A DNA stretch of 37,381 nt from a virus, in IMG/VR virus record IMGVR_UViG_3300017728_004512, positions 1 to 37,381 of that record, one strand, 5' to 3'. Under the pieces are notes generated by a model, which searched no databases, was not told the DNA's origin, and saw only the letters and a list, made by a program, of their open reading frames with translations. Positions 524 to 37,381 of the stretch are shown piece after piece (the stretch's first letter is position 1; the number at the start of each line of letters is the position of its first letter). The position numbers and the translations under genes were made by a program.

Positions 524-555
524 TAAATATACGAAAATAAACTGTGGCCCCCAAA
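524..555 (-). promoter_or_regulatory. Host-type (Bacteroidetes-like) promoter for the FAD gene
   Basis: On the minus strand TTTG (552-555) lies 20 bases before TATATTTA (524-531), preceded by TTCG. The box ends 18 bases before the ATG at 505. It matches the Bacteroidetes pattern TTTG/TAnnTTTG except for the last base. The TTCGTATATTWA string recurs only at 11056 and 33374, as far as I could see. The TTTG lies in the loop of the terminator at 542-568. Confidence 0.6.
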
Positions 556-5774: not shown

Positions 5775-5790
5775 ATCGTTTATATATACA

Positions 5791-5829
5791 AAAAAAGACC
5801 CAGTTCCCAGGGGGAATCAGGTCTTTTTT
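5791..5829 (-). terminator. Strong rho-independent terminator (usable in both directions)
   Basis: AAAAAAGACC (5791-5800) pairs with GGTCTTTTTT (5820-5829), a 10-base perfect stem, and the loop can pair further (TTCC/GGAA). On the minus strand the stem is followed by T residues. It lies 20 bases after the stop of the 82-aa gene and ends the 10102-5850 unit. Confidence 0.85.
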
Positions 5830-5849
5830 AATTACTATATTTAGTATAA

Positions 5850-6098
5850 TTAATTAGAAGTCGTATCTATAGCATATCCACCCGCGTTAAGTAAATTTTG
5901 AGCAGATTGTGCTGAACCGTCTCCCGTAGAAGAATTAAATAAATCAATAGCAGCTTGGTTTTGTCCATAGCTTACAAGAGTAAAATCTGTATCTAAAGTA
6001 GCAGATACTGATTGTCCTTTTCTGGAGTGGAGATTCTCGTCAGGAAAAGCAAGAAGTCTATTATTAGCTCCACTTAAAAATTTTGTTAATAATCCCAT
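5850..6098 (-). CDS. Small protein of unknown function before the terminator (82 aa)
   Basis: A short protein with a positively charged and hydrophobic start (MGLLTKFLSGANNRLLAFPDE) and a Ser/Ala/Asn-rich second half (NQAAIDLFNSSTGDGSAQSAQ). It has no signal peptide or clear membrane segment and belongs to no family I recognise. It has its own candidate late promoter (6128-6139) with a 29-base leader and is followed by the strongest terminator in the window. This single-gene layout is what one expects for an abundant late product such as a small capsid or cement protein. That is inference only. Confidence 0.6.
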   Translation of the reverse strand: MGLLTKFLSGANNRLLAFPDENLHSRKGQSVSATLDTDFTLVSYGQNQAAIDLFNSSTGDGSAQSAQNLLNAGGYAIDTTSN

Positions 6099-6127: not shown

Positions 6128-6139
6128 GTTATACATATA
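6128..6139 (-). promoter_or_regulatory. Candidate late promoter TATATGTATAAC
   Basis: The minus strand reads TATATGTATAAC, 29 bases upstream of the ATG at 6098. The same 12-mer (T or G at position 6) occurs at 10117, 31417 and 35725. A TTTG lies 18 bases further upstream here, unlike the other copies, and may be chance. Confidence 0.5.
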
Positions 6140-6146
6140 TTAAAAG

Positions 6147-6482
6147 TTAACTTACATCAAACTCTGAAGAGGTAAGTTTAACTCCATATTTTTCAAAAAA
6201 TTTTCTTGCATCGGCCCCCCTTCCGGCACCTACAGCATCGTAAAATTCAAATAACCCCCTTTCACCTCCATCAAGGTTTATTTGTTGGGGTCTAGATCCA
6301 CCACTATTTACAAATAAGTAACCTCTATAAATACGATCTGACATTCCTGTATAAGCAACATCAATATTAACAAGTTTACCATTTATACGGTCACCTTGTT
6401 TTACCATAATATCATTACCTACAATGTCAATTTCAATATTACGGCTAATAGTAATTTCGTTTAATATATCTTTAAGTTTCAT
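6147..6482 (-). CDS. Small protein with ILNE leader (111 aa)
   Basis: The start MKLKDILNEITISRNIEIDI is a short helix ending in ILNE, the leader seen in several head-type proteins here. The rest is beta-rich (DIMVKQGDRINGKLVNIDVAY, then a basic Gly-rich GRGADARKFFEKYG stretch). No family is recognised. It overlaps the end of the 1207-aa gene by 4 bases (ATGA), so the two are translationally coupled. If the leader is a capsid-targeting signal, this would be a small internal protein. Equally, ILNE may simply be a helix. Confidence 0.65.
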   Translation of the reverse strand: MKLKDILNEITISRNIEIDIVGNDIMVKQGDRINGKLVNIDVAYTGMSDRIYRGYLFVNSGGSRPQQINLDGGERGLFEFYDAVGAGRGADARKFFEKYGVKLTSSEFDVS

Positions 6483-9400
6483 TTTTTCTGGAAATCTGAG
6501 GATACACCTCCTGTTATAAATTTACCTGTAACTTTAAAGGGTTTAGGTGAGATTTTATCATCACGTATAACTACACCTTCATGGTCATTAACAGAACCCA
6601 TCGGCGAATCTAATACATCTAGTATTGCATCACCTAATTTTTCTGTAGCGAGGTATGTAGTAGCTCCTTGGATGGCTTTTTGAACTTCTTGTTCTGTATT
6701 AAAGAGTGAATCTACGTTTTCACCCCCAAACACAGCAAAATATACTTGTTTACTTAATGCACCAACATCTTTTATAGAATCGGTTTCTTCGATATTCATT
6801 TTTAAACGGTCGGTTTTAGGAATATTAGTAACATTATTTAACCATTGAGCTAATGTTTTGGTTTGGTCTCCCTCAGCAAAATCAATAGTATATTTTTGGC
6901 TTAATGCAGCTCTAAAATCTGGATCTTTAGTAAATGTAGTAGGTACGGAACCATAAATTTCAAATCCTTTCTTTTTAGCAAATGGTTCTAACTTTTTAAG
7001 TAATTCTTTTAAATCAGCTTTATCATATAATTTTTCAGATGTTATTCGTTTAGTTAACATTTTACGTGCGCCTTGTACTTCTTTAGTTTCTACTTTTAAT
7101 AAACCATGAATTGCTAAAAAATTCTTACCATAATCTTGTACATTAGATTTACCACTGACATATTCCATATTAAACATAATATTAGGATCATCAATTAATC
7201 CTAATGCGTTTAATTCTTCTTGTATTGATGGTAAAGCATTATTAAATATATCTAATACATCGCCACCTGCTTTAATCATCCCATGACCCTGACCAAATCT
7301 ATCTTCTAAATCAGCTTTAGTAACTCCACGTAAATCAAGTGCCTTTTTTGATCCGCGGTCCATGGCGAAGACACGTTTACCGTCGAGATTTACTAATCTA
7401 ATTGACGCATTTACGCCATCTATCTTAACGCTACCGGGTGATTTTTTAAGACTATTAGTAGCCTGTTCAAATGATTTAATTAAATCTTTACCACTATTTA
7501 CATTAGGTAAATCAAATGGGTGTGCCATGTGCCCCGCGGCACCCCCCTCGTATAATATTTCTTCGGTAATTATATCTAACCACCATTCCTGTGAAAATAG
7601 TCCTTCCTTTTTCATTCTTTGGGTTTTTCTTTTTGATGCTTCTTTACGCTTAGTAATGTAATCTAATCCGGTTTTTAAGCGTTTTTTGACAGCAGGATCT
7701 TTAGATCTATTATACGCCGCTCTAACACGTTGGTGGATTAGGTTAATAATTTGTGACTGCCGTGCGTGAGACTTAGCTTTAAATGATTTTTTAGATAAGG
7801 TATCAACTATATCCTGCCTAGTGCTGAATTTAATGCTAACGGTATCTTTGGGGTTTTCGTCAGTATATAGACGGCGTCCAGATCCTTTAGGTTTTTTACC
7901 TGTACCCTTTTTAGGGTCTCCTTCTTTAACAGGTTCATAAGCTGAGCCATATGGTGCAGCTTTACCTTTATGTCTTTTTTGTACCTCTGGGTCTATATTC
8001 TCTTTATGAGTTGTAGTTTTTAAAGTTTTAGCTAATGTGAGTGCTTTATAATATTTTTGATTTTTGTCACTTCTCTTTTCCATCTTTTTAAGACGTGCCA
8101 ATTCTTTATTAATTAGTGAAAGAGGAATTTTTTCACCTTTAGGAATATTTAAACGTTTTCTAACTGTACCTTGTTTTAAATTACCTGCTTTTTTACCTTT
8201 AGCAGCCATTTTTTCATATGTGTCCCCCTCATCTACAGCATTATCCTCTAAATATCCTAATTTTTTAGCTTTTTTAGGATCATTAGTAAATGTATCACTT
8301 GCTCTATATCTAGTTTGTTGTACTTGATTTGCCTTATATGGTGGGAAGTTTTCATCTATTTGGGCTGATGGTAAGTGTTTACGAGCATAGTCTGTATAAA
8401 TTTGTGTTATTTTATCTTCTTGATCGTTTGATAGTTCTTCGGCTTTACTATCTATAAAATCTTGTAATGCTTGAGTAAATGAAACTTTTCTTGTTTTAGC
8501 ATTTTTATAAATTCCCATTACATGGGCCGGAATTTCATAATCTAAGGTAAGATATTCAAATGTGGGTAAGTCCTTTTCGTCTTTTTCTAGATCACCTTTA
8601 ACTCCTTTATCAAAATGGAACTGCCCTATATGTTCTAATTCATGTCTTACAGAATCTTTAATTTCAGCTATTAAATCGTTATATGCCTTAGGAAACATAT
8701 CAGGTTGATAGTTAATTTGAATAAACATTGATTCATCATCCGCACCTGCATTCACAATAAATGGGTTAGGACCTAGCTTATCAAAGGCAGTAGGGTAAAA
8801 ATATAATTCTAAATCATAAGATACTGCAGTATCTTCTTTTTTATCAGATCTTCTTAGTTTTCCGATTTCTTCAAAGTTGTCTTCATAATTTTTACCAAAT
8901 TCATCCTTAAACATATCTACAACAAAACGAGATATTATTAAAGTTTCTGCGTCATAACGCCCTTCATATAATTTTCTTTTTAACCCTTTAGTTAAATTAG
9001 TAGGAACCTGGGTCATTTGATCTGTTTGTTTAGAAAAAAATTTACGTAACTTTTTCATATTAGCTAAATGTTTATTCATTTCTTGTTGGTTCATAGTACC
9101 CCCCATAAGTTCATTTAAGTCTTTATGTAGAGTTTTACCATTTGAAGTATAAAAATTGCCTGATTGTATGATTTTTTGGGTTAAAGAAATAAAATCATTA
9201 AAAGTAGCATTAGGGTTTTTTCTGCCTAATTCTACTCCTAACTGATTATTAGCAGAATCCATATCCCAGCCACTATCAAATGGTCCTCCTTTTAATTTAC
9301 TTTTTAGGGTACCTATAAGTTCTAAAGCCTCACCAGTACCTTTAGTTAAAAATCCACCTAATTTAGTAGTAAAATAAGCACTAGCTAATACATGTCTAAA

Positions 9401-10102
9401 AGCGTCTCTTTTATTATCTAATATATCTCTATATTCTTTTTCTTCTTCAGGTGTTCTATTTTCGGGGCTACCTTGGGGTAAATGTTTAGTACTATATAAA
9501 GTTTTAGCTAAAGTTTTAATTTTTTCTATAGCAGGGATGTAATCTGTTATACCTTCGCTTATATTATTAGGCATAGTAGTATCTAATAATTTAGTCCAAA
9601 TTTCTTCTTTAATTTCTTCGGGGAGATATTCAGGAATAAATTTAAAAAATTCAATTTTATTATTAGATTTAATAATTTCACGCATACGCGTACCTGAAAT
9701 ACCGCCGGCTTGTGGTGGTACTAATTCAATTTCTGCTTTAATATTGCGAGGTTCTGCAAATTTGGGGATATTATTGTAACGCCCATCAGTAGCATCTTTT
9801 TCACCTAATCCTAAAATAACCGTAGAGCCTTCAGGTGCTACACTCTCTACAAAATCGTATACATCTTTTACAGGAGAGGGTGATTGTGCTACACTTATAA
9901 TTAATTTTTGGGCACGCGAGTCAGAATCAAACTCCTTATAAAAATTCCATATTTCTAAAGCTAAAGGTGATCCTATACCCTCTCTTTCTTTTTGCCCAAT
10001 TCTTACTATAACTTTATCAGCAAAATCCGCAAGATATTTTGCCATATTATAGTGTCCGAGATGAGGTGGTTTAAATCCACCTGGTAAAAGGGCTATTTTC
10101 AT
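6479..10102 (-). CDS. Giant multidomain protein: NMNAT-like nucleotidyltransferase, two hydrolase-like domains, basic module and ligase-like domain (1207 aa)
   Basis: Domain 1 (1-170): GGFKPPHLGH (8-17) and ISGTRMREI (135-143) are the two signatures of HIGH-type nucleotidyltransferases such as NMN or pantetheine-phosphate adenylyltransferases. Domain 2 (about 185-335): RDAFRHVLASAYF (232-244) and DMDSANNQLGVELGR (280-294) resemble DUF6973. Domain 3 (about 382-585): RHELEHIGQF, with HELEH at 487-491, is a zincin HExxH. Domain 4 (about 728-830): a very basic module with GTGKKPKGSGRRLYTDENP. Domain 5 (853-1207): KIDGVNASIR (893-902), DRGS (915-918), MEYV (979-982), EGVVIR (1175-1180) and K1187/K1190 match motifs I to V of DNA/RNA ligases; the domain resembles DUF6267. 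ISE|G (182-184), LYE|G (379-381 and 850-853), VDE|G (623-626) and VKE|G (725-728) lie between domains. It has a candidate late promoter. Its probable job is packaged enzymes released by prohead cleavage, by inference. Confidence 0.85.
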   Translation of the reverse strand: MKIALLPGGFKPPHLGHYNMAKYLADFADKVIVRIGQKEREGIGSPLALEIWNFYKEFDSDSRAQKLIISVAQSPSPVKDVYDFVESVAPEGSTVILGLGEKDATDGRYNNIPKFAEPRNIKAEIELVPPQAGGISGTRMREIIKSNNKIEFFKFIPEYLPEEIKEEIWTKLLDTTMPNNISEGITDYIPAIEKIKTLAKTLYSTKHLPQGSPENRTPEEEKEYRDILDNKRDAFRHVLASAYFTTKLGGFLTKGTGEALELIGTLKSKLKGGPFDSGWDMDSANNQLGVELGRKNPNATFNDFISLTQKIIQSGNFYTSNGKTLHKDLNELMGGTMNQQEMNKHLANMKKLRKFFSKQTDQMTQVPTNLTKGLKRKLYEGRYDAETLIISRFVVDMFKDEFGKNYEDNFEEIGKLRRSDKKEDTAVSYDLELYFYPTAFDKLGPNPFIVNAGADDESMFIQINYQPDMFPKAYNDLIAEIKDSVRHELEHIGQFHFDKGVKGDLEKDEKDLPTFEYLTLDYEIPAHVMGIYKNAKTRKVSFTQALQDFIDSKAEELSNDQEDKITQIYTDYARKHLPSAQIDENFPPYKANQVQQTRYRASDTFTNDPKKAKKLGYLEDNAVDEGDTYEKMAAKGKKAGNLKQGTVRKRLNIPKGEKIPLSLINKELARLKKMEKRSDKNQKYYKALTLAKTLKTTTHKENIDPEVQKRHKGKAAPYGSAYEPVKEGDPKKGTGKKPKGSGRRLYTDENPKDTVSIKFSTRQDIVDTLSKKSFKAKSHARQSQIINLIHQRVRAAYNRSKDPAVKKRLKTGLDYITKRKEASKRKTQRMKKEGLFSQEWWLDIITEEILYEGGAAGHMAHPFDLPNVNSGKDLIKSFEQATNSLKKSPGSVKIDGVNASIRLVNLDGKRVFAMDRGSKKALDLRGVTKADLEDRFGQGHGMIKAGGDVLDIFNNALPSIQEELNALGLIDDPNIMFNMEYVSGKSNVQDYGKNFLAIHGLLKVETKEVQGARKMLTKRITSEKLYDKADLKELLKKLEPFAKKKGFEIYGSVPTTFTKDPDFRAALSQKYTIDFAEGDQTKTLAQWLNNVTNIPKTDRLKMNIEETDSIKDVGALSKQVYFAVFGGENVDSLFNTEQEVQKAIQGATTYLATEKLGDAILDVLDSPMGSVNDHEGVVIRDDKISPKPFKVTGKFITGGVSSDFQKK

Positions 10103-10104
10103 AT

Positions 10105-10116
10105 AAACTATAGTTT
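10105..10116. repeat. Perfect 12-base palindrome in the 1207-aa gene leader
   Basis: AAACTATAGTTT is fully self-complementary and abuts the candidate promoter element (10117-10128), ending 2 bases before the ATG at 10102. It could be an operator or an RNA hairpin at the ribosome entry site. A 12-base AT-rich palindrome may also be chance. Confidence 0.4.
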
Positions 10117-10128
10117 GTTATACATATA
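10117..10128 (-). promoter_or_regulatory. Candidate late promoter TATATGTATAAC
   Basis: An exact copy of the element at 6128, ending 14 bases before the ATG of the 1207-aa gene and starting 2 bases after the primase stop. No TTTG lies about 20 bases upstream, so it is not a host-type promoter. Confidence 0.55.
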
Positions 10129-10130
10129 AC

Positions 10131-11051
10131 TTACTGATATAAGATTTTCTTTTCTACTAATCCTTGGAATGTTAGTGGTTTTGCGTTTTGTAGTACACGA
10201 GTTATTTCTTCAAATCCTAAATCACTTGGGTCTTTACCACCAAGTTCTAATAAAAATATTTCCTTACCATATGCCATAAGTTCTTTAGCATACTTAAGAG
10301 AATCATTTATGGCATCTTGGTCAAGTGCAAGATATATTTGTTTTACGCGTCCTCTAACGAGTTCTTTATAGAGTGATTTACTAATTCGTTTTCCAAACAA
10401 GGGCACGGCATTTCGTTTGATTGCAATTGCATCAAAGGCACCTTCACAAATGATAATAGGAATATTAAAGTTACAAAGCATGTCAAAGCCAATAATATCT
10501 TTTGATGTTGGCGGAAGCTTGTGCTTGTGATAAGCTTGTGGATCAAACGAACGACCCACCCAGTAATTAAGGATTCCTTGTCTATCATAACTTGGTATTA
10601 TTATAAAATTAGCTAATTTACCTTCTTCAATATACCCAATATTATACTTTATTATATCTTGTGCTGTAACCCCTCGGGACTTTAAATAATGGTAAGCTTT
10701 ATCTCTAGTTAAACCTTTACCTTTAAGTAGTGTAATAAATCCTTCAGGTAATTGAAGTTGATCTTTAGGTTTTTCTACATGTGTTGCTTTAAACTTATAC
10801 TGAGCATCAATTTCTTTTAATTCTTGAAACGCTGTATAAGGAGCCTTAATAAATTTAAGGAGTTGTAATGCTCTTGCACCCTTAAAACCACAAACCCAAC
10901 ATTGGTATTTTTGGGTTAATTTATTTAATGTAAGTTTTTTCTTATGGTGGTTGCAATTAGGACAACTAAATACGGCCTCGTCTCCTCCTCGTGCGCTTTT
11001 GCTTTTTCCTAACAGACTTTCTAGCAAATATATAAGGCGATCTTCCTTCAT
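10131..11051 (-). CDS. DNA primase, zinc finger plus Toprim (306 aa)
   Basis: Makes RNA primers for replication. The N-terminal zinc finger has C30-x2-C33 with H35/H36 and C51-x2-C54 (CPNCNHH ... CWVCG), the CHC2 type. The Toprim core shows CEGAFDA (202-208, catalytic E203 and D207), LALDQDA (241-247, D244 and D246) and GKDPSDLG (272-279). The length fits the short phage primases (T4 gp61-like) without a fused helicase. It has its own host-type promoter at 11056-11086, only 4 bases from the ATG, which would give a nearly leaderless mRNA. The downstream 1207-aa gene has a separate promoter. No replicative helicase lies next to it in the window. Confidence 0.93.
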   Translation of the reverse strand: MKEDRLIYLLESLLGKSKSARGGDEAVFSCPNCNHHKKKLTLNKLTQKYQCWVCGFKGARALQLLKFIKAPYTAFQELKEIDAQYKFKATHVEKPKDQLQLPEGFITLLKGKGLTRDKAYHYLKSRGVTAQDIIKYNIGYIEEGKLANFIIIPSYDRQGILNYWVGRSFDPQAYHKHKLPPTSKDIIGFDMLCNFNIPIIICEGAFDAIAIKRNAVPLFGKRISKSLYKELVRGRVKQIYLALDQDAINDSLKYAKELMAYGKEIFLLELGGKDPSDLGFEEITRVLQNAKPLTFQGLVEKKILYQ

Positions 11052-11055
11052 CCCC

Positions 11056-11086
11056 TAAATATACGAAAGAAAGGTCAAAAGCCAAA
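11056..11086 (-). promoter_or_regulatory. Host-type (Bacteroidetes-like) promoter for the primase
   Basis: TTTG (11083-11086) lies 19 bases before TATATTTA (11056-11063), preceded by TTCG; four G residues separate the box from the ATG. The TTTG overlaps the end of the GIY-YIG gene. It shares the TTCGTATATTWA string with 524 and 33374. Confidence 0.6.
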
Positions 11087-17469: not shown

Positions 17470-18162
17470 TTATTTTACAGTTCCGGTTACGTTTTGATCT
17501 GCGGTTATAGCTATTACTTCTTTAGTAATTTCTAAAGGTATAGTTACTCTAGCACCACTATCTCTTCCTTCTAATATTAAAGAAGTTAATAATGTATTAG
17601 AAGTACCGAATAATGTTTGTGAATTAATAGCCGTTAAAGTGAATGAATTACCTAACACAGATTCTGCTACAGGGGTATTAGCATAGGGTCTTCTTCTTGA
17701 AATTGGGGCTCCTTTTGTTGTAGTACCCGTAAATGTTTGGAGTAATCTTCTATCAGCAATAGTTGCTATATATCCTCCTGGTTCTTTTAAATTAGCAGTA
17801 CCATTAAAGTTTAAAGTAGTAGGATTAACGTTAGTAGTAGAACCTAATGATAAAGTAACCTTTGATACATTAGCTGTTACTACTGGCATTCTAGATGTGC
17901 CTCTAGGTAAAGTAACTAATTTAGATTTCATAATATATCTATCATCTGGGATAGCTTCTAATATAGACATGTTTTCAATAGCTTCACCTACAAATTGTGA
18001 TCCATTAGGGTGGTTTTCATTAAATAGTGTATAATCTATTTCATCATCCCCTAATGCAAATTGTGTAATATTAAATGAGCCATCTTGCCTTGATAAAAGT
18101 TCTCTACCTTTTTTAGTTAAAACAGCATCTACTATAATTGTTTGGTTACTTAAATATCCCAT
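17470..18162 (-). CDS. Virion structural protein (230 aa)
   Basis: The N-terminal 115 residues (ILTKKGRELL-type start, here VDAVLTKKGRELLSRQDG, then FALGDDEIDYTLFNENHPNG and KLVTLPRGTSRMP) are the conserved core of a structural protein family common in T4-like marine phages and some Bacteroidetes phages. The second half is beta-rich and ends in a Val/Thr tail. It is the first gene after a 38-base gap with two TATTTATAA boxes, so the unit 18162-11497 may have its own promoter. A place in the tail fibre or baseplate periphery is inferred from the gene order. Confidence 0.75.
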   Translation of the reverse strand: MGYLSNQTIIVDAVLTKKGRELLSRQDGSFNITQFALGDDEIDYTLFNENHPNGSQFVGEAIENMSILEAIPDDRYIMKSKLVTLPRGTSRMPVVTANVSKVTLSLGSTTNVNPTTLNFNGTANLKEPGGYIATIADRRLLQTFTGTTTKGAPISRRRPYANTPVAESVLGNSFTLTAINSQTLFGTSNTLLTSLILEGRDSGARVTIPLEITKEVIAITADQNVTGTVK

Positions 18163-18174
18163 TTTTTTGTTTTT

Positions 18175-18187
18175 TTATAAATATATA
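18175..18187 (-). promoter_or_regulatory. Candidate late promoter (TATATATTTATAA), with a second copy upstream
   Basis: The minus strand reads TATATATTTATAA, 12 bases before the ATG at 18162, close to TATATTTATAAC but without the final C. A second partial copy (TAATATTTATAA) lies at 18192-18203, so ATATTTATAAAA is directly repeated. No -33 TTTG is present. Confidence 0.4.
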
Positions 18188-25450: not shown

Positions 25451-27343
25451 TTAGTATTTTACTACTCTACCCTTTATATCAGAATTAGGGTATTTTAATT
25501 CAAAAATACCTATATCTTGTGAGGGGTAAATTATATTGTTTATAGTTGCCGAGCCAAAATCATAAGAATGTTTAGAATACCCTAAGGCATTTCCTGCTTT
25601 ATTTTTAAATCTTATATCTTCAACATTTTGTACCCCAGTTACTTGTCCCAAAACATTAAATATTTCACTAATTAATATAGGTTGATTAAATTGCCAATTT
25701 TGAATATCAAAATATTTTTTTAATGAATTGATACTATTAAGTAATACTTCTTGGTTATTAAAATTTTTAAATACTACTATATCAAATTCTATAGCAAAAT
25801 TTATGATAAATCCATTTTTTATATTTATAGAATCTGTTAACATTCTATATTGTTCTAAATAGGTTATTAAATTTTGTCTAGTAGCTGGGTTTAAAGGTGT
25901 TAATTGATTTTGACTATTATATCCTAATGTATATAAATTTAAAGAATTAGGATTACTAATTCTACTAGAAGTAGAAGCACTTATTTGGTCATCTTTAATT
26001 ATGTATGCTTTAGCAACTCTACCTAATTGGGGAGGTAAATTTAAAGTCCTAATAATATAGTCTTCTTTAGATACTGTACGTAACTGAGAAGAGGCATTAG
26101 ATATTGAATTCAACCGTATATCTTCAATTGAATCCCCGGGTCCACCGCCTGTGGCAGCTTGGGGGTTATTTACTGCTATTGAGTTTATAACCGTGGTTTT
26201 TACGCCTGAGTCTAATCCACCAATATTATCACTAGTTAAAACTGTGTTTTTACGTGTAATTGTATTAGAATCTACATTACTTTTAACTCCACCTCCTACT
26301 ATGTAGGTTACTGTAAGGGTGGTATTTTTAGGGGTTTCTCCATAAGTTTTAGTAAATAAAAAGTTAGAAGGATCAAATGCTAAATCTAGTAATGATCTAC
26401 CATCTTTGACTCCTAAACCAATATTATCTGGATTAGGAATTATATCTTCATCAGTGTTAGAAGTAATTCCTGCTCCAAATTGAATTTGTAGAGTATTATT
26501 AGCTAAAAATCTAGCTACAAACCTTTTGGGTACTTTTTTAAGTTTTAATAAATATGGAGTATCACTAGAATATTGAGATAATCCTGGAGTATTTGAAGTA
26601 TCATTACTAATTTCTTCAAAAATAGTTTCTTGAGCTAAATATGGTACTTCTAAGTAACTATTTCCATCCGAATCTATAATAGATTCTATTTTAATTATAT
26701 TTTTGTCTGAAAGTTCTAAAGTAAGAAATCTTTGTGATGGTCCTATTTCAAAAGTTTTTGTTTTAGGGGTTCCCGAAATTACCTTACCTTTTTTCTTTAA
26801 TAAATAATATTCTGGGTTATCAGCACCGTCTGTTTGGTGTATTATAGTTTCTAAAGGACTTAAAGAAGAACTAATACTAAAGTTTACATCATTTTCTAGT
26901 GTAAATGTAATTGCTGATTCTCCACCAGTGGTTTTAAAGTTTGAATTTTTATTTATAGTAAGGGCATAATCAAAATCAGGGGCATATGGGGAAGTTCCCT
27001 TAGCAGGTACCTCCATAAATAAATCTACTTCTGTAGTAGAAGCATTAGTTACAGAGGGTTTATATCCTAAATTATATGCTAGTGCTAAAAGATTAGTTTT
27101 TTCCTGTGCTGATTGTATAAATGTTTCTTGAATTTGGGTATCAATATAAAAAGAAAGTACATCACCAACATAGGAAGCCATTTCCAAAAATATCATTCCT
27201 GGATTGCTTTCTGAAAAATCATTAAAATTATCAGGAAAATAAGTTTTAGTAAATTCAACTAAATTTTGTTTTAGTTGACTATAATCTTTATTAAGATAAC
27301 TTATATCTTTATTGGGGGTGTTATTTGTTTTAGAATAAGCCAT
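25451..27343 (-). CDS. gp6: Baseplate wedge protein, gp6-like (630 aa)
   Basis: Residues 14-98 (DISYLNKDYSQLKQNLVEF, SESNPGMIFLEMASYVGDVL, QEKTNLLALAYNLGYKP) are the hallmark N-terminal region of T4 gp6-like / baseplate J-like wedge proteins, which form the inner ring of the baseplate around the hub. Further conserved parts are the middle beta region (about 230-330) and the C-terminal INFAIEFDIVVFKN and ILISEIFNVLGQVTGVQNV segments. Length agrees with T4 gp6 (660 aa). The gene follows gp25 directly (3 bases), the usual pairing of wedge genes in myoviruses. Confidence 0.92.
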   Translation of the reverse strand: MAYSKTNNTPNKDISYLNKDYSQLKQNLVEFTKTYFPDNFNDFSESNPGMIFLEMASYVGDVLSFYIDTQIQETFIQSAQEKTNLLALAYNLGYKPSVTNASTTEVDLFMEVPAKGTSPYAPDFDYALTINKNSNFKTTGGESAITFTLENDVNFSISSSLSPLETIIHQTDGADNPEYYLLKKKGKVISGTPKTKTFEIGPSQRFLTLELSDKNIIKIESIIDSDGNSYLEVPYLAQETIFEEISNDTSNTPGLSQYSSDTPYLLKLKKVPKRFVARFLANNTLQIQFGAGITSNTDEDIIPNPDNIGLGVKDGRSLLDLAFDPSNFLFTKTYGETPKNTTLTVTYIVGGGVKSNVDSNTITRKNTVLTSDNIGGLDSGVKTTVINSIAVNNPQAATGGGPGDSIEDIRLNSISNASSQLRTVSKEDYIIRTLNLPPQLGRVAKAYIIKDDQISASTSSRISNPNSLNLYTLGYNSQNQLTPLNPATRQNLITYLEQYRMLTDSINIKNGFIINFAIEFDIVVFKNFNNQEVLLNSINSLKKYFDIQNWQFNQPILISEIFNVLGQVTGVQNVEDIRFKNKAGNALGYSKHSYDFGSATINNIIYPSQDIGIFELKYPNSDIKGRVVKY

Positions 27344-27346
27344 TTA

Positions 27347-27766
27347 TTATAATTTTAAAGATACTTCATTAGTATCACCATCAACTAAAACTTTATATTG
27401 AATTTTAACTAATAAATTATTAGTATTTTTTATAGGGTCTACTTTTATATCGGTTGCTGTTATTTGTGGGATGTGTATGGTAATATTTTGATTAATTAAT
27501 CCTTTTAATTGAGATATTTTATCGGCAGTTTCAATATTAGGTTCAAATAAAATTTCTCTTAACCCTATACCATAATTAGGTTCGTGAAATCTTTCACCTT
27601 TAGAAGTTAATAATAAATTAATTAAATTAGATTTTATTTGATTTTTTGTAGAAAAATTAGATTCAAAAATACTTTTTTTATTAAAAGGTATTTTTGTCCC
27701 TATAGCCTTGCGTGTATCAAGATCTAGAGGGTTAATTTTTACTCCAATTTTTCTTTGTATAGCCAT
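27347..27766 (-). CDS. gp25: Baseplate wedge protein, gp25-like (139 aa)
   Basis: Length and pattern fit the gp25/GPW family: NLINLLLTSKGERFHEPNYGIGLREILFE (about 46-75) is the conserved core, with the E-P-N-Y-G-(x)-G-L run diagnostic. The N-terminus contains INPLDLDTRKAIG, and the C-terminus is beta (VKIQYKVLVDGD). In T4, gp25 is the wedge piece that contacts gp6 and the sheath initiator. Its ATG overlaps the stop of the preceding 117-aa gene by 1 base and it is followed directly by gp6. Confidence 0.92.
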   Translation of the reverse strand: MAIQRKIGVKINPLDLDTRKAIGTKIPFNKKSIFESNFSTKNQIKSNLINLLLTSKGERFHEPNYGIGLREILFEPNIETADKISQLKGLINQNITIHIPQITATDIKVDPIKNTNNLLVKIQYKVLVDGDTNEVSLKL

Positions 27767-28119
27767 TAGGGTCTATAATTTTTTTTATTATCTATAGCAC
27801 TCATTAGTTGACTATAATCCTTATTTACAAATTGATTTACCGGATCATTAACGGCTGCACGTTCTTCCCAAGTAGGAGTAGTAGCCGTTTCTGTGAGAAG
27901 AGAATTTAAAGTATCATCTCCAGTGTTGAATGAAGGGGTTGGGATTTGGGATTTTAGTTTATTTCTAAAGGTTTCTAACTCTTGTGTGTTATTAGATTCA
28001 TTAATATGTTGTGGGGGGTTTAACCCTTCCTTCAATGAATTAATTTCACGTTTTAGTGCGTAATCTATTTCTTCACGTACAACTTTTCTAATTATTTGTT
28101 CAAAAGCACTTAACTTCAT
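27766..28119 (-). CDS. Small baseplate-region protein with helical leader (117 aa)
   Basis: Residues 1-33 (MKLSAFEQIIRKVVREEIDY, then LKREINSLKEGL) form an amphipathic, charged helix ending in LKE|G; the remainder is Pro/Thr/Asn-rich and probably flexible, with TPTWEERAAVNDPVNQFVNKD near the end. Similar short proteins precede gp25 in other T4-like marine phages, from memory. Function unknown. The gap before it (28120-28142) carries TATATTTATTAA on the minus strand, a degenerate form of the late element. Confidence 0.65.
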   Translation of the reverse strand: MKLSAFEQIIRKVVREEIDYALKREINSLKEGLNPPQHINESNNTQELETFRNKLKSQIPTPSFNTGDDTLNSLLTETATTPTWEERAAVNDPVNQFVNKDYSQLMSAIDNKKNYRP

Positions 28120-29422: not shown

Positions 29423-31082
29423 CTATATTTAGTTTTTGATCCTTATCTATAGCTTGGTTTATTTTTTTAATATATGTAGGAAATTGACTCCAATAAATAA
29501 CAAGTGTATCTGTAACTGCTGGGTCTATTTCACTTCTATTTTTCCAAAAATTTGCTTCTTCCAAAGCAGCATCAACTATTTTTAAAGCATCTTCACCCTT
29601 TAAAGGTCTTAAAATTACAAAAGCTGCATTTTTAGATCCCTCTGTGCCCAAGTATTTACTTATTATTTTTTTATTAGATGCTGTAAGAATTTTTTTTCTA
29701 CATGTACCCTGGTTAATATCAACTCCGTATATTTCTTTATCTTTTTTTTCACTTACATTACCTCCTACCAAAGTAACTGCATTATTTCTAACTTTTACAA
29801 CTATATCCCCATGAGAAGCTCCTTTCCATTTATCATCACTAAAATTAAGTTTATTCCCCTCTCTCCCTTTAATAAAAACATCACCCGGTTTTACTTCACC
29901 CTCTGATCCTGATAAAAATGGATCTATGGCGGAAAATGCATATCCTCCATCTTTTATAGCTTGGGCATACCCAACATGATTAGCCCTCCTGGGGAATGAT
30001 ATTCCTGCTTTTTCTGCTATACAATAACTTATAAAAGCGGCACTCCATGGAGTTTCTGTTAGAAATTTACCTAAATTTTTAGTAGGATCTTGTAATATAC
30101 CCGGTGTAATTGTTCCTTTTTTAGTATCTATAATATTATCTGTTTTTATTTCTTTGACAGTATCATCAAGATCTTGTGGAATAGCATCGTTTGAATCTAT
30201 TTGATCAGTTCTTGTAAAGATACTAATCTTTTGTAGTGGTGTAATAGGTTCTGTTGAAGGGACTAGATCGACATTTTCTCCTAAGGATCTAAAATTATTA
30301 GCAGATATAGAAAACCCAGAAACATTTTGGTTACTTAACATATAAATAGAACTGGCATCCTCGTTAATATTTTCTATCACCATTTCTCTATCGCCAGATT
30401 GGCCATTAGATATTACAATAACAGGATCGCCTTCACTATCGTTTTCGGACCAATTATTTTTACCTTGTGGGGTTGAAGAACCAAATCTTATGCTATTACC
30501 AAATCTACCTTCAAATAACATATCTCCTTCAAATGGTAACATTTTTTTAGTAGATGCTATTTTATTTTCGTCTATGTAAGTTCCTAATTCTAAATTAAAA
30601 TCTTCTTCTAAATTAGTTGGAGTAGCAACTTGGCCTGGATTTATTGTTGGGGATTTTAAATCTGCTTCACGTGGTAATGGGTTATAACCAGCATTTCCCC
30701 ATATATTTACACTTGGAAAATAATAATATTCTGTGTGATTAGAATAGCCCCCAGTTTTACTATAATGATTTGAGCTAGGGGCTAATGTTAAAGTTACTAT
30801 TTCATTTTTTAGGGGTAAAACGTTAGTTGAAGAAAAATGAGGTTTAGCTATATTTAGATTTAAAGGATCTATATCTTTATTTCCTTCTTTAGTACCTATT
30901 TCAGCCCAAAAAATAGCTCCAATGTAAGTGGGATCAAATTGTCCTTCTAGAGTTTTTAAAAAAAATGGGTGGGTTTCATCCAGTATAATATCATATACCC
31001 TAGCGGATATTATATTACGATCTTTTGAGGGGTTATTATTATTTCCCTGACCTTTTAGTGTTCTTAGTTGATTCGTCGGCAT
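29415..31082 (-). CDS. Baseplate hub/spike protein with DUF2272-like peptidoglycan hydrolase domain (555 aa)
   Basis: The N-terminal part (about 22-140, with GAIFWAEIGTKEGNKD and KNEIVTLTLAPSSNHY) looks like an OB-fold hub domain. FEGRFGNSIRFGSS (about 190) and DPVIVISNGQSGD (about 220) are hub signatures I recall from T4-like marine phages. Residues about 345-490 contain PWSAAFISYCIAEKAG and later a GASHGDIVV segment; this is the DUF2272 / NlpC-P60-like amidase pattern. C352 in SYCIA, if catalytic, would be the nucleophile, but the family usually has another residue there. The protein probably opens the cell wall during injection, like T4 gp5. It overlaps the frameshifted gene by 44 bases. 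Confidence 0.75.
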   Translation of the reverse strand: MPTNQLRTLKGQGNNNNPSKDRNIISARVYDIILDETHPFFLKTLEGQFDPTYIGAIFWAEIGTKEGNKDIDPLNLNIAKPHFSSTNVLPLKNEIVTLTLAPSSNHYSKTGGYSNHTEYYYFPSVNIWGNAGYNPLPREADLKSPTINPGQVATPTNLEEDFNLELGTYIDENKIASTKKMLPFEGDMLFEGRFGNSIRFGSSTPQGKNNWSENDSEGDPVIVISNGQSGDREMVIENINEDASSIYMLSNQNVSGFSISANNFRSLGENVDLVPSTEPITPLQKISIFTRTDQIDSNDAIPQDLDDTVKEIKTDNIIDTKKGTITPGILQDPTKNLGKFLTETPWSAAFISYCIAEKAGISFPRRANHVGYAQAIKDGGYAFSAIDPFLSGSEGEVKPGDVFIKGREGNKLNFSDDKWKGASHGDIVVKVRNNAVTLVGGNVSEKKDKEIYGVDINQGTCRKKILTASNKKIISKYLGTEGSKNAAFVILRPLKGEDALKIVDAALEEANFWKNRSEIDPAVTDTLVIYWSQFPTYIKKINQAIDKDQKLNIDD

Positions 31083-31415
31083 CTTGTGCTACTTCTTCTG
31101 CTATTTGTTGAAGTTGTTTTAATTCTTCATCTGTTAAGAGAGAATCACTACCACCTGAACCATTACTATTACCCATTCTTTGTATGACAGCCATCATTTT
31201 TATAAGATGTTCATCATTTTTTACACTAACTTCTAAATATTCTTTTATAAGAGGCACAACTACGGGGGCATCTCCAATATTTTGTATTAAAGGTTTTAAT
31301 TCAGCAATTAAAGAATTAATTTGTTTATCTTTTTTTTACTGTTATCATATATTTCTTTAAATACATCGGAAGATGTTTTTCCATTAAATAGTATTGTATC
31401 AAGTGGAGTATCCAT
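31039..31415 (-). CDS. Small tail-region protein made by a -1 frameshift (about 125 aa), or a gene broken by an indel
   Basis: The ATG at 31415 opens a 35-codon frame (MDTPLDTILFNGKTSSDVFK... ending in TAA at 31308-31310). In the -1 frame the reading runs without a break from codon 30 through the GTG at 31257 to the stop at 31039. A -1 slip at A AAA AAG (31329-31335) gives NSKKK-DKQINSLIAELKP and on to VPLIKEYLEVSV, one continuous helical protein with a Gly/Ser linker (GNSNGSGGSDS) and an acidic C-terminus. The first frame and the second have the same helical, charged character. The role is unknown; position before the hub/lysin suggests baseplate assembly. An A-run length error in the assembly would give the same picture. 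Confidence 0.65.
31329..31335 (-). other. Putative -1 slippery heptamer A AAA AAG
   Basis: In the reading frame of the ATG at 31415 the codons are AAA AAA AAG (27-29), inside a run of eight A (31330-31337). A AAA AAG is the heptamer of the dnaX frameshift. No strong stem or internal Shine-Dalgarno could be seen near it. Confidence 0.55.
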
Positions 31416-31416
31416 G

Positions 31417-31428
31417 GTTATAAATATA
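31417..31428 (-). promoter_or_regulatory. Candidate late promoter TATATTTATAAC heading the tail block
   Basis: TATATTTATAAC ends one base before the ATG at 31415 and starts 4 bases after the stop of the sigma gene. With a transcription start 5-7 bases downstream of the TATATTTA box, the mRNA would begin at or very near the ATG (leaderless). No TTTG lies at -33. Confidence 0.5.
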
Positions 31429-33373: not shown

Positions 33374-33405
33374 TTAATATACGAACGTTTTTACCGCTTT
33401 CCAAA
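33374..33405 (-). promoter_or_regulatory. Host-type (Bacteroidetes-like) promoter for the sigma-factor operon
   Basis: TTTG (33402-33405) lies 20 bases before TATATTAA (33374-33381), preceded by TTCG, with the box 13 bases before the ATG at 33360. Its -33 part overlaps the end of the 92-aa gene. Same TTCGTATATTWA string as at 524 and 11056. Confidence 0.6.
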
Positions 33406-35272: not shown

Positions 35273-35713
35273 TTATTTTAATTTGAAAATTTCGTTAATT
35301 TTATTTCTAACTTCAGCTCTAATATTTTCTTTAAGCTTAATTTCTTTCATTTTATCCATTGTAAATTTTTCTTTTACTTCTTTCATTGAGTGTTCACCCA
35401 TTTCTTTTATAAAAGTTTTAAATGAAGGTTTACGATCCATATTACGTGTAATAGTTTCATAATGTTCCATAAGAGAATAATAAGCAGGAATGTCCTTTAA
35501 ATTTTTAAGAATACTTTCAGTAGCCTTTTCCCTTTGTTCTGTTTCAGATTCCCTTAAATTAACACCTAATTTTGCTAATTCAACATTCATTCCTTTTTTA
35601 AATTCATAAGGGTTAATTGATTCAAAGTCAAGATCTACTGAACCCCTAGCACCCTGTAAAGTATTTAATTTACTGGGATTTCTTTTATATCCGTAAAAAT
35701 TATTATTAGCCAT
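35273..35713 (-). CDS. Conserved small phage protein, function unknown (146 aa)
   Basis: The pattern INPYEFKKGMNVELAKLGVN, TEQREKATESILKNLKDIPAYYS and KPSFKTFIKEMGEHSMKEVKEK is a conserved small protein of T4-like marine phages, from memory without a known role. It is helical and charged, with no signal peptide or catalytic motif. It has a candidate late promoter 11 bases upstream and lies 1 base before the acidic 137-aa gene, so the two form a late unit. A structural or assembly role is likely. Confidence 0.7.
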   Translation of the reverse strand: MANNNFYGYKRNPSKLNTLQGARGSVDLDFESINPYEFKKGMNVELAKLGVNLRESETEQREKATESILKNLKDIPAYYSLMEHYETITRNMDRKPSFKTFIKEMGEHSMKEVKEKFTMDKMKEIKLKENIRAEVRNKINEIFKLK

Positions 35714-35724
35714 CTGTTAGTTTT

Positions 35725-35736
35725 GTTATAAATATA
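35725..35736 (-). promoter_or_regulatory. Candidate late promoter TATATTTATAAC
   Basis: An exact copy of the element at 31417, ending 11 bases before the ATG at 35713, with a second TATATTTATC directly upstream (tandem TATATTTAT). No TTTG at -33. Confidence 0.55.
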
Positions 35737-35752
35737 GATAAATATAAAAAAA

Positions 35753-36363: not shown

Positions 36364-37381
36364 TTAAATTATTCTATAATTAAAACCGACTGAAAAATCA
36401 TGCCAAGCACGGTTCCAGTATTTATGGTACTTTCCTTGGGAAAATACTCCTAATTGTTTATTTACTTGCCACCCTAAAATTAAACCTCCTGTATAGTCAA
36501 ACCAAGTATTACCATCAACAAAGTTAGTATACGAGTATTCATTTTTAGCACTTACATGGAGAGGTAATACACTTGCCCAAGAGTGGAGCCAAAATGATTT
36601 AGTATAGTGGTAATAATCATATCCTAATACTAACGAATGATTCCACTGATAGGGTAATAATGCTCTTTCTTGATCAACATATTCATTTAATACATTAGGA
36701 AGAGCAACAGCATTCCATACTATATTATTTTCGGCTACTATATCCCCATTTGGGTTAATCCATTCTCCTTCAAAATTAGTACCATAACCTTGTTCAATAG
36801 CTATATTTGTAAAATCAGCTCCTGCTAATTCAGATAATGGATCAAATCCATAGGGTTCAGAAAAACGTTGAACTAAACCAATATTCAAAGAAAATTCTTT
36901 AGCTATATTATATCTATAGCGTTGTGAAGCTTCAAAATATCTTAGATCAGCAAAGCCGTCTTGCACATACTCTACTTTTAAAATCCAATGATCATGAACA
37001 TATCTTAAAAAATGTTGTTGGTCAACAAATTTACTTCCTTGTTGTCTTTTATAGTCAAATTCAAATAAATATTCTAAACCCTCTACATTGCCTACTGTAG
37101 CAGCATCTGAAACTGATGTTTCAGTACCATTATAAAATACGTTTTTTCTATTTTCGTAATCTAAACGAGCGATTTTTCTAACACCAAAAGCTAAAGTATA
37201 ATCAAAAGGAGTAGATACAATGTTTTCTTCTAAAATACCTGTAGAAGGATTTATTGAATATAAACTAACATCTGCTAGTGAATTATTACCTGTTACTGCT
37301 GTATAAAAAGTAGCAAATTTGAGTTGTTTTTTACCCCAATCTTTAAGTTGTTGGGCTTGTACTAAAAGAGGTACACAACAT
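36364..37381 (-). CDS. Secreted outer-membrane beta-barrel-like protein, 5' end cut by window edge
   Basis: The frame is open from the right edge (37381) to the stop at 36364, giving 338 residues; the start lies outside. The first visible residues (CCVPLLVQAQQLKDWG) are the end of a signal peptide, with cleavage likely after A-Q. An upstream GTG at 36966 is internal, not the start. The sequence is aromatic and alternates like membrane strands (FDYTLAFGVRKIARLDYENR, WILKVEYVQDGFADLRYFEA, LNIGLVQRFSEPYGF), and the C-terminus FSVGFNYRII has the aromatic pattern of outer-membrane barrels. I recall similar proteins from T4-like marine phages. Location: outer membrane of an infected Gram-negative cell. 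Possible roles: superinfection exclusion or lysis. Confidence 0.7.
   Translation of the reverse strand, partial: CCVPLLVQAQQLKDWGKKQLKFATFYTAVTGNNSLADVSLYSINPSTGILEENIVSTPFDYTLAFGVRKIARLDYENRKNVFYNGTETSVSDAATVGNVEGLEYLFEFDYKRQQGSKFVDQQHFLRYVHDHWILKVEYVQDGFADLRYFEASQRYRYNIAKEFSLNIGLVQRFSEPYGFDPLSELAGADFTNIAIEQGYGTNFEGEWINPNGDIVAENNIVWNAVALPNVLNEYVDQERALLPYQWNHSLVLGYDYYHYTKSFWLHSWASVLPLHVSAKNEYSYTNFVDGNTWFDYTGGLILGWQVNKQLGVFSQGKYHKYWNRAWHDFSVGFNYRII

Follow-up and report, generated by a model that had tools for sequence, protein, structure and literature searches.

The window analysed here is a 37 kb viral contig fragment (37,381 nucleotides, about 69% A+T). It carries a gene for a putative phage sigma factor and, on the same strand, a set of short AT-rich boxes placed shortly before genes (Table 1). 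The exact 12-mer TATATKTATAAC, i.e. TATAT(T/G)TATAAC, occurs at 6128, 10117, 31417 and 35725, each time on the minus (coding) strand and each time between genes. Shuffles of the window (n = 100) contained a mean of 0.13 copies, and none reached four, showing that the copies singled out by the first-pass annotation are, as a set, real and not a product of chance. The form TATATNTATAA gives a fifth site at 18175, also intergenic and on the minus strand. The end of the 12-mer lies 1-29 bases before the next ATG at the five sites. TTTG at a -33-like spacing is found only at the 6139 site (spacing 18), confirming the earlier observation that the other four lack it. The five sites listed in that annotation were recovered, but a strong one had been missed: TATATTTATTAAAAAC at 28142-28127 precedes the baseplate wedge genes and fits the class just as well. 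The gp25 and gp6-like genes sit downstream of it and form a baseplate operon.

When a matrix trained without the window was applied to it, the top intergenic scores fell at 35738, 18187, 31430 and 28144, and both TATATG sites (6128 and 10117) scored poorly. The matrix also matches within genes, so a single match is no proof. One such match is strong (26543-26558, minus strand, 18.0 bits, in the gp6-like baseplate gene) and represents either an internal promoter or chance. The site at 6139, taken alone, is possibly a chance occurrence. The proposal that the boxes precede genes for structural or packaged proteins holds for the tail and baseplate genes, but not evidently for the cytidyltransferase-like gene behind the 10117 box, nor for the gene behind the 6128 box, for whose 82-aa protein no relatives were found.

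Two further features of the window were observed. A perfect 12-bp palindrome, AAACTATAGTTT (10103-10117, minus strand), separates the variant box from the start codon of the cytidyltransferase-like gene; its counterpart in relatives L092-L122 is mostly AAACTGCAGTTT, and the element is a possible operator. An open-ended reading frame (36364-37380, minus strand) has by eye the look of an outer-membrane beta-barrel, which is unusual for a phage.

Table 1. Putative promoter boxes and associated genes in the window
Feature	Position	Strand	Context
Second-class box TTCGTATATTTA	524..535	-	Directly behind terminator-like hairpin, before gene 2-505
Variant box TATATGTATAAC	6128..6139	-	Before orphan gene 5850-6098; weakest member; TTTG at spacing 18
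Variant box TATATGTATAAC	10117..10128	-	Before gene 6479-10102 (cytidyltransferase-like); matrix score below 8 bits
Second-class box TTCGTATATTTA	11056..11067	-	Before primase gene 10131-11051
Late box TATATTTATAAA	18174..18185	-	Before tail-module gene 17470-18162; 17.3 bits
Late box TATATTTATTAA	28131..28142	-	Before gene 27766-28119 and gp25/gp6-like baseplate genes; 14.9 bits
Conserved gene after sigma gene	31039..31415	-	About 120 aa in relatives; leaderless mRNA predicted
Late box TATATTTATAAC	31417..31428	-	Directly after sigma gene; next ATG at 31415
gp55-like phage sigma factor, 230 aa	31432..32124	-	Region 2-like N-terminal domain and conserved C-terminal helical domain
Second-class box TTCGTATATT	33376..33385	-	TTTGG upstream; kept in close relatives; host-type -33/-7 promoter
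Late box TATATTTATAAC	35725..35736	-	Before gene 35273-35713; best matrix score, 18.9 bits; kept in 6/6 relatives found

Conservation of the box in related contigs

A set of 161 non-redundant related contigs (1.37 Mb) contains the 12-mer 52 times in sense-intergenic positions, 6 times in sense-coding, once in antisense-intergenic and never in antisense-coding positions; frequent occurrence inside genes, which would have spoken against a promoter, is not seen. Among 453 upstream regions of these contigs the most enriched octamer is ATATTTAT, present in 186 on the sense strand and in 14 on the antisense strand, and the bias of strand and position that the first reading had suggested looking for is thereby established. 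Pooled sites give the consensus [T/C]ATATTTAT(A/T)ANNAA. With positions numbered from 0 at the first A of ATATTTAT, 86% of them have an A at index 12. The terminal C and the T/G choice of the 12-mer are not general features of the class, which is better described by the consensus TATATTTAT(A/T)A, followed by a conserved A where +1 probably lies, than by the fixed string TATAT(T/G)TATAAC.

The T4 box TATAAATA was considered as the late box of these phages and rejected, because it is not enriched in sense-intergenic positions of the related contigs (68, versus 252 antisense). The antisense copies are the reverse complement of TATTTATA. TATTTATA and the T4 box are exact reverse complements of each other, so that a search blind to strand can confuse the two. 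In the T4 control, the phage's own TATAAATA was seen on the sense strand.

Comparison of orthologous upstream regions revealed footprints of the box at four genes whose flanks have diverged. Upstream of orthologues of the tail-module gene 17470-18162, ATATTTAT is present in 51 of 55 distinct sequences (exactly TATATTTATAAC in 30 of the 55), and index 12 is an A in all 51 that carry it. Almost all of some 30 relatives retain the 28142 site, including ones whose proteins share just 30-40% identity, and behind the sigma gene a late box is present at 80 of 80 loci. The ATATGTAT of the variant site at 10128 is also kept, in 31 of 31 close relatives.

Predicted start site and the gene behind the sigma gene

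Downstream of the sigma gene the spacing of the box is fixed. In the window and all 11 other clade members (12/12), index 12 is the A of the ATG of the next gene, and the spacing is the same in members whose box falls within the end of the sigma coding sequence; in other clades that ATG stands at index 16-30. Homology between the encoded protein and its relatives begins at this ATG. If the box drives the gene, transcription cannot start further downstream than the A of the ATG at index 12, and since other sites also keep an A there, this base is suggested to be +1. The conserved A and the spacing to the ATG would agree with the start 5-7 bases downstream of the box that is expected of a T4-type late promoter. 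The message of the post-sigma gene is consequently predicted to be leaderless, with the start in TATATTTATAACcATG on the A of the ATG. The mRNAs of Flavobacterium johnsoniae are mostly leadered (PMC6847099). A T4 register, with TATTTATA at -13 to -6, was discarded, because +1 would then fall two bases into the post-sigma ATG.

Two details of this locus deserve mention. In L007-L014 the sigma reading frame runs through the late box of the next gene at its 3' end, and its stop codon shares bases with the ATG that follows. In the window itself, the post-sigma gene has a run of eight A residues (31330-31337, minus strand) against nine bases in the relatives. Its frame is thereby broken, while that of the relatives is intact; the break is either an assembly error or a real deletion.

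The sigma factor and the two probable promoter classes

The sigma gene matches at least 600 IMG/VR stretches. Among deposited phages it is found in Flavobacterium phage immuto (46% identity), in Microcystis phage Mel-JY01 (40%) and in one metagenomic phage. Immuto is T4-related, with gp20, gp23, sheath and tube. Genome-assembly contigs that bear the gene are often labelled Flavobacteriaceae or Bacteroidetes, and the hosts of the lineage are most likely Bacteroidetes.

The presence of a gp55-like gene in the window, as first reported, is borne out by members of the sigma family that match the late sigma profile PHROG 234 (best E-value 4.9e-5); the sole phrog_234 match in immuto is the sigma gene (E 0.008). 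The predicted model of the protein (pLDDT 77) aligns with T4 gp55 in the open complex (7d7c_F) at Z 9.0 and 3.4 A over 108 residues, and although helical folds score easily in such a search, the top rows are nearly all sigma factors. By profile and predicted fold, the region 2-like domain thus appears to resemble gp55, distantly. A direct profile-profile comparison of the sigma with gp55 did not reach significance, and solved structures searched by sequence with the sigma profile gave no real match. Assignment of the C-terminal domain as sigma region 4 or as gp33-like was dropped, since a fold search of this domain returned weak and mixed matches.

A conserved C-terminal hydrophobic/acidic clamp-binding tail of the T4 type (T4 gp55 ...SLDFLYEAND) is absent across 24 aligned sigma members. 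The complete records of immuto and Mel-JY01 have no match to PF09116, PF02916 or DnaN PF02768, models that do find the T4 control, though a diverged clamp could escape them. With no clamp detected and no clamp-binding tail, late transcription in these phages may proceed without the T4 clamp device.

Box and sigma gene occur together. In independent contigs that were selected solely for the sigma and had no part in defining the motif, ATATTTAT stands in sense orientation in 23 upstream regions and in antisense orientation in none; nearly all of these contigs carry the box, down to 29% sigma identity. The Bacteroidetes phages FCL-2 and phi14:2 (first 50 kb) lack the sigma and have ATATTTAT in 0 of 32 and 1 of 28 upstream regions, respectively. 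Mel-JY01 has the sigma, yet carries ATATTTAT in only 1 of 21 upstream regions; motif discovery in this phage, with too few regions, gave no stable motif. From this co-occurrence we infer that the sigma encoded in the window reads the late box. What stands of the promoter class first proposed is a box of its own, the lack of a -33 element and the link to the sigma, through strand bias, footprints, co-occurrence and the location of sites in the structural module; its fixed 12-letter form does not stand, and its TATATG sites are weak.

A second class of boxes exists in the same phages, in which TTTGG precedes TATATT by about 20 bases (TTTGG-N~20-TATATT) in the context TTCGTATATT. In its letters this class fits the promoter of the Bacteroidetes primary sigma, which has TTTG at -33 and TAnnTTTG at -7 (PMC6847099). 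TTTG at the -33 spacing accompanies 19 of 56 second-class sites (2.6 expected) and 2 of 103 late-box sites (5.1 expected), and both boxes are found together in only 2 of 324 regions. Most structural genes of immuto are located past 78 kb, and this part of the genome holds 17 of the 24 intergenic TATTTATA sites but only one of the 24 sites of the second class (p = 2e-6). The immuto late-box sites precede sheath, tube, portal, tape measure and other genes, and it is by this gene content, the structural module, that the class is putatively late.

Terminator-like hairpins with a T run are in places followed directly by a GTATAT-type box (506-624 and 5775-5849 on the minus strand of the window; 22.1, 25.5 and 130.6 kb in immuto). 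In these pairs a terminator and the next promoter seem to be fused, and the -33 TTTGG can fall within the hairpin.

We consider it probable, with good confidence, that TATATTTAT(A/T)A marks the late promoters of a large T4-related lineage, used by the host RNA polymerase when it carries the phage sigma. The phage sigma would replace the host primary sigma on the host polymerase. Its region 2-like domain would recognise and open the -10-like box, an upstream -33 element would not be read, and transcription would begin at or beside the conserved A at index 12. Promoter role, recognition by the sigma, start site and late timing are all inferred from sequence.

The box could instead be a host -7 element of the TAnnTTTG type that lacks its -33 partner: the host primary sigma would read it, and the phage sigma would read another sequence or act differently. 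TATATTT does agree with the -7 element of F. johnsoniae at T-12 A-11 and T-8 T-7 T-6, the -33 motif of this bacterium is weak in vivo (PMC6847099), and TATATT is common to both phage classes. However, the near-invariant G-5 is replaced by A, followed by a conserved T(A/T)A that the Bacteroidetes promoter does not have, and the -33 TTTG is missing. The same phages also keep a separate TTTGG class, the two classes divide in immuto between early-type and structural regions, and sigma-less phages are nearly free of the box. We therefore regard reading by the host sigma as unlikely. An effect of the AT-rich string on the mRNA or its translation, for example as an A/U-rich leader favoured by Bacteroidetes ribosomes, is very improbable: the box is close to the start codon and A-rich leaders do favour initiation in F. 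johnsoniae (PMC6847099), but its distance to the ATG varies (12-30 bases), it stands before some genes only, its fixed letters TATATTT are unlike an A-rich leader, and it tracks the sigma gene. Chance in such AT-rich DNA is scarcely credible for the class and is refuted by the shuffles, strand bias, footprints and controls.

Comparison with T4 and Aeh1 and significance

T4 late promoters consist of a single TATA box and have no -35 element (PMC2988020). In T4, TATAAATA at -13 to -6 is read by gp55 with gp33 and gp45. The class described here, if it is used by the phage sigma, shares with T4 a single AT box of 8-9 bp about one turn before the start, the lack of a -35/-33 element, a position before structural genes, and a phage sigma with a gp55-like region 2. 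It differs in its centre, where AA has become TT (TATATTTA versus TATAAATA, 6 of 8 letters equal), and this TT, unlike the AA of T4, matches the Bacteroidetes -7 element. The box here adds a conserved T(A/T)A and an A at the probable +1. In contrast to T4 gp55, the sigma has an extra C-terminal domain, and the gp45 clamp of T4 has no detected counterpart in the complete relative immuto, where a diverged clamp could be missed. A T4-related precedent is Aeh1, which has a CTAAATA late box and a diverged gp55 (PMC1524935). The likeness lies in the pairing of a diverged box with a diverged gp55, and immuto boxes often have a C at the corresponding position. Aeh1 nevertheless retains AAATA, whereas the late box described here has a TTTA centre. 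A search of the open-access literature brought up no earlier description of a late promoter from Bacteroidetes T4-like phages.

In summary, the late box is very probably a real promoter element, and the class is probably a variant of the T4-type late promoters, with letters that differ both from T4 and from the usual promoters of the probable host. That the lineage as a whole combines a gp55-like sigma with an extra C-terminal domain, clamp-free transcription, a box that leans toward the -7 element of the host, and a leaderless start in one clade is put forward only tentatively. The consensus offers a testable late promoter for abundant, mostly uncultured aquatic phages and one cultured relative, and it lets late genes be marked in hundreds of contigs. 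The constant distance from box to ATG behind the sigma gene limits where transcription may start and leads to the prediction of a leaderless message. The pairing of a diverged sigma and a diverged box recalls Aeh1 and opens to test the idea that the late boxes of phages track the -10/-7 preference of the host.
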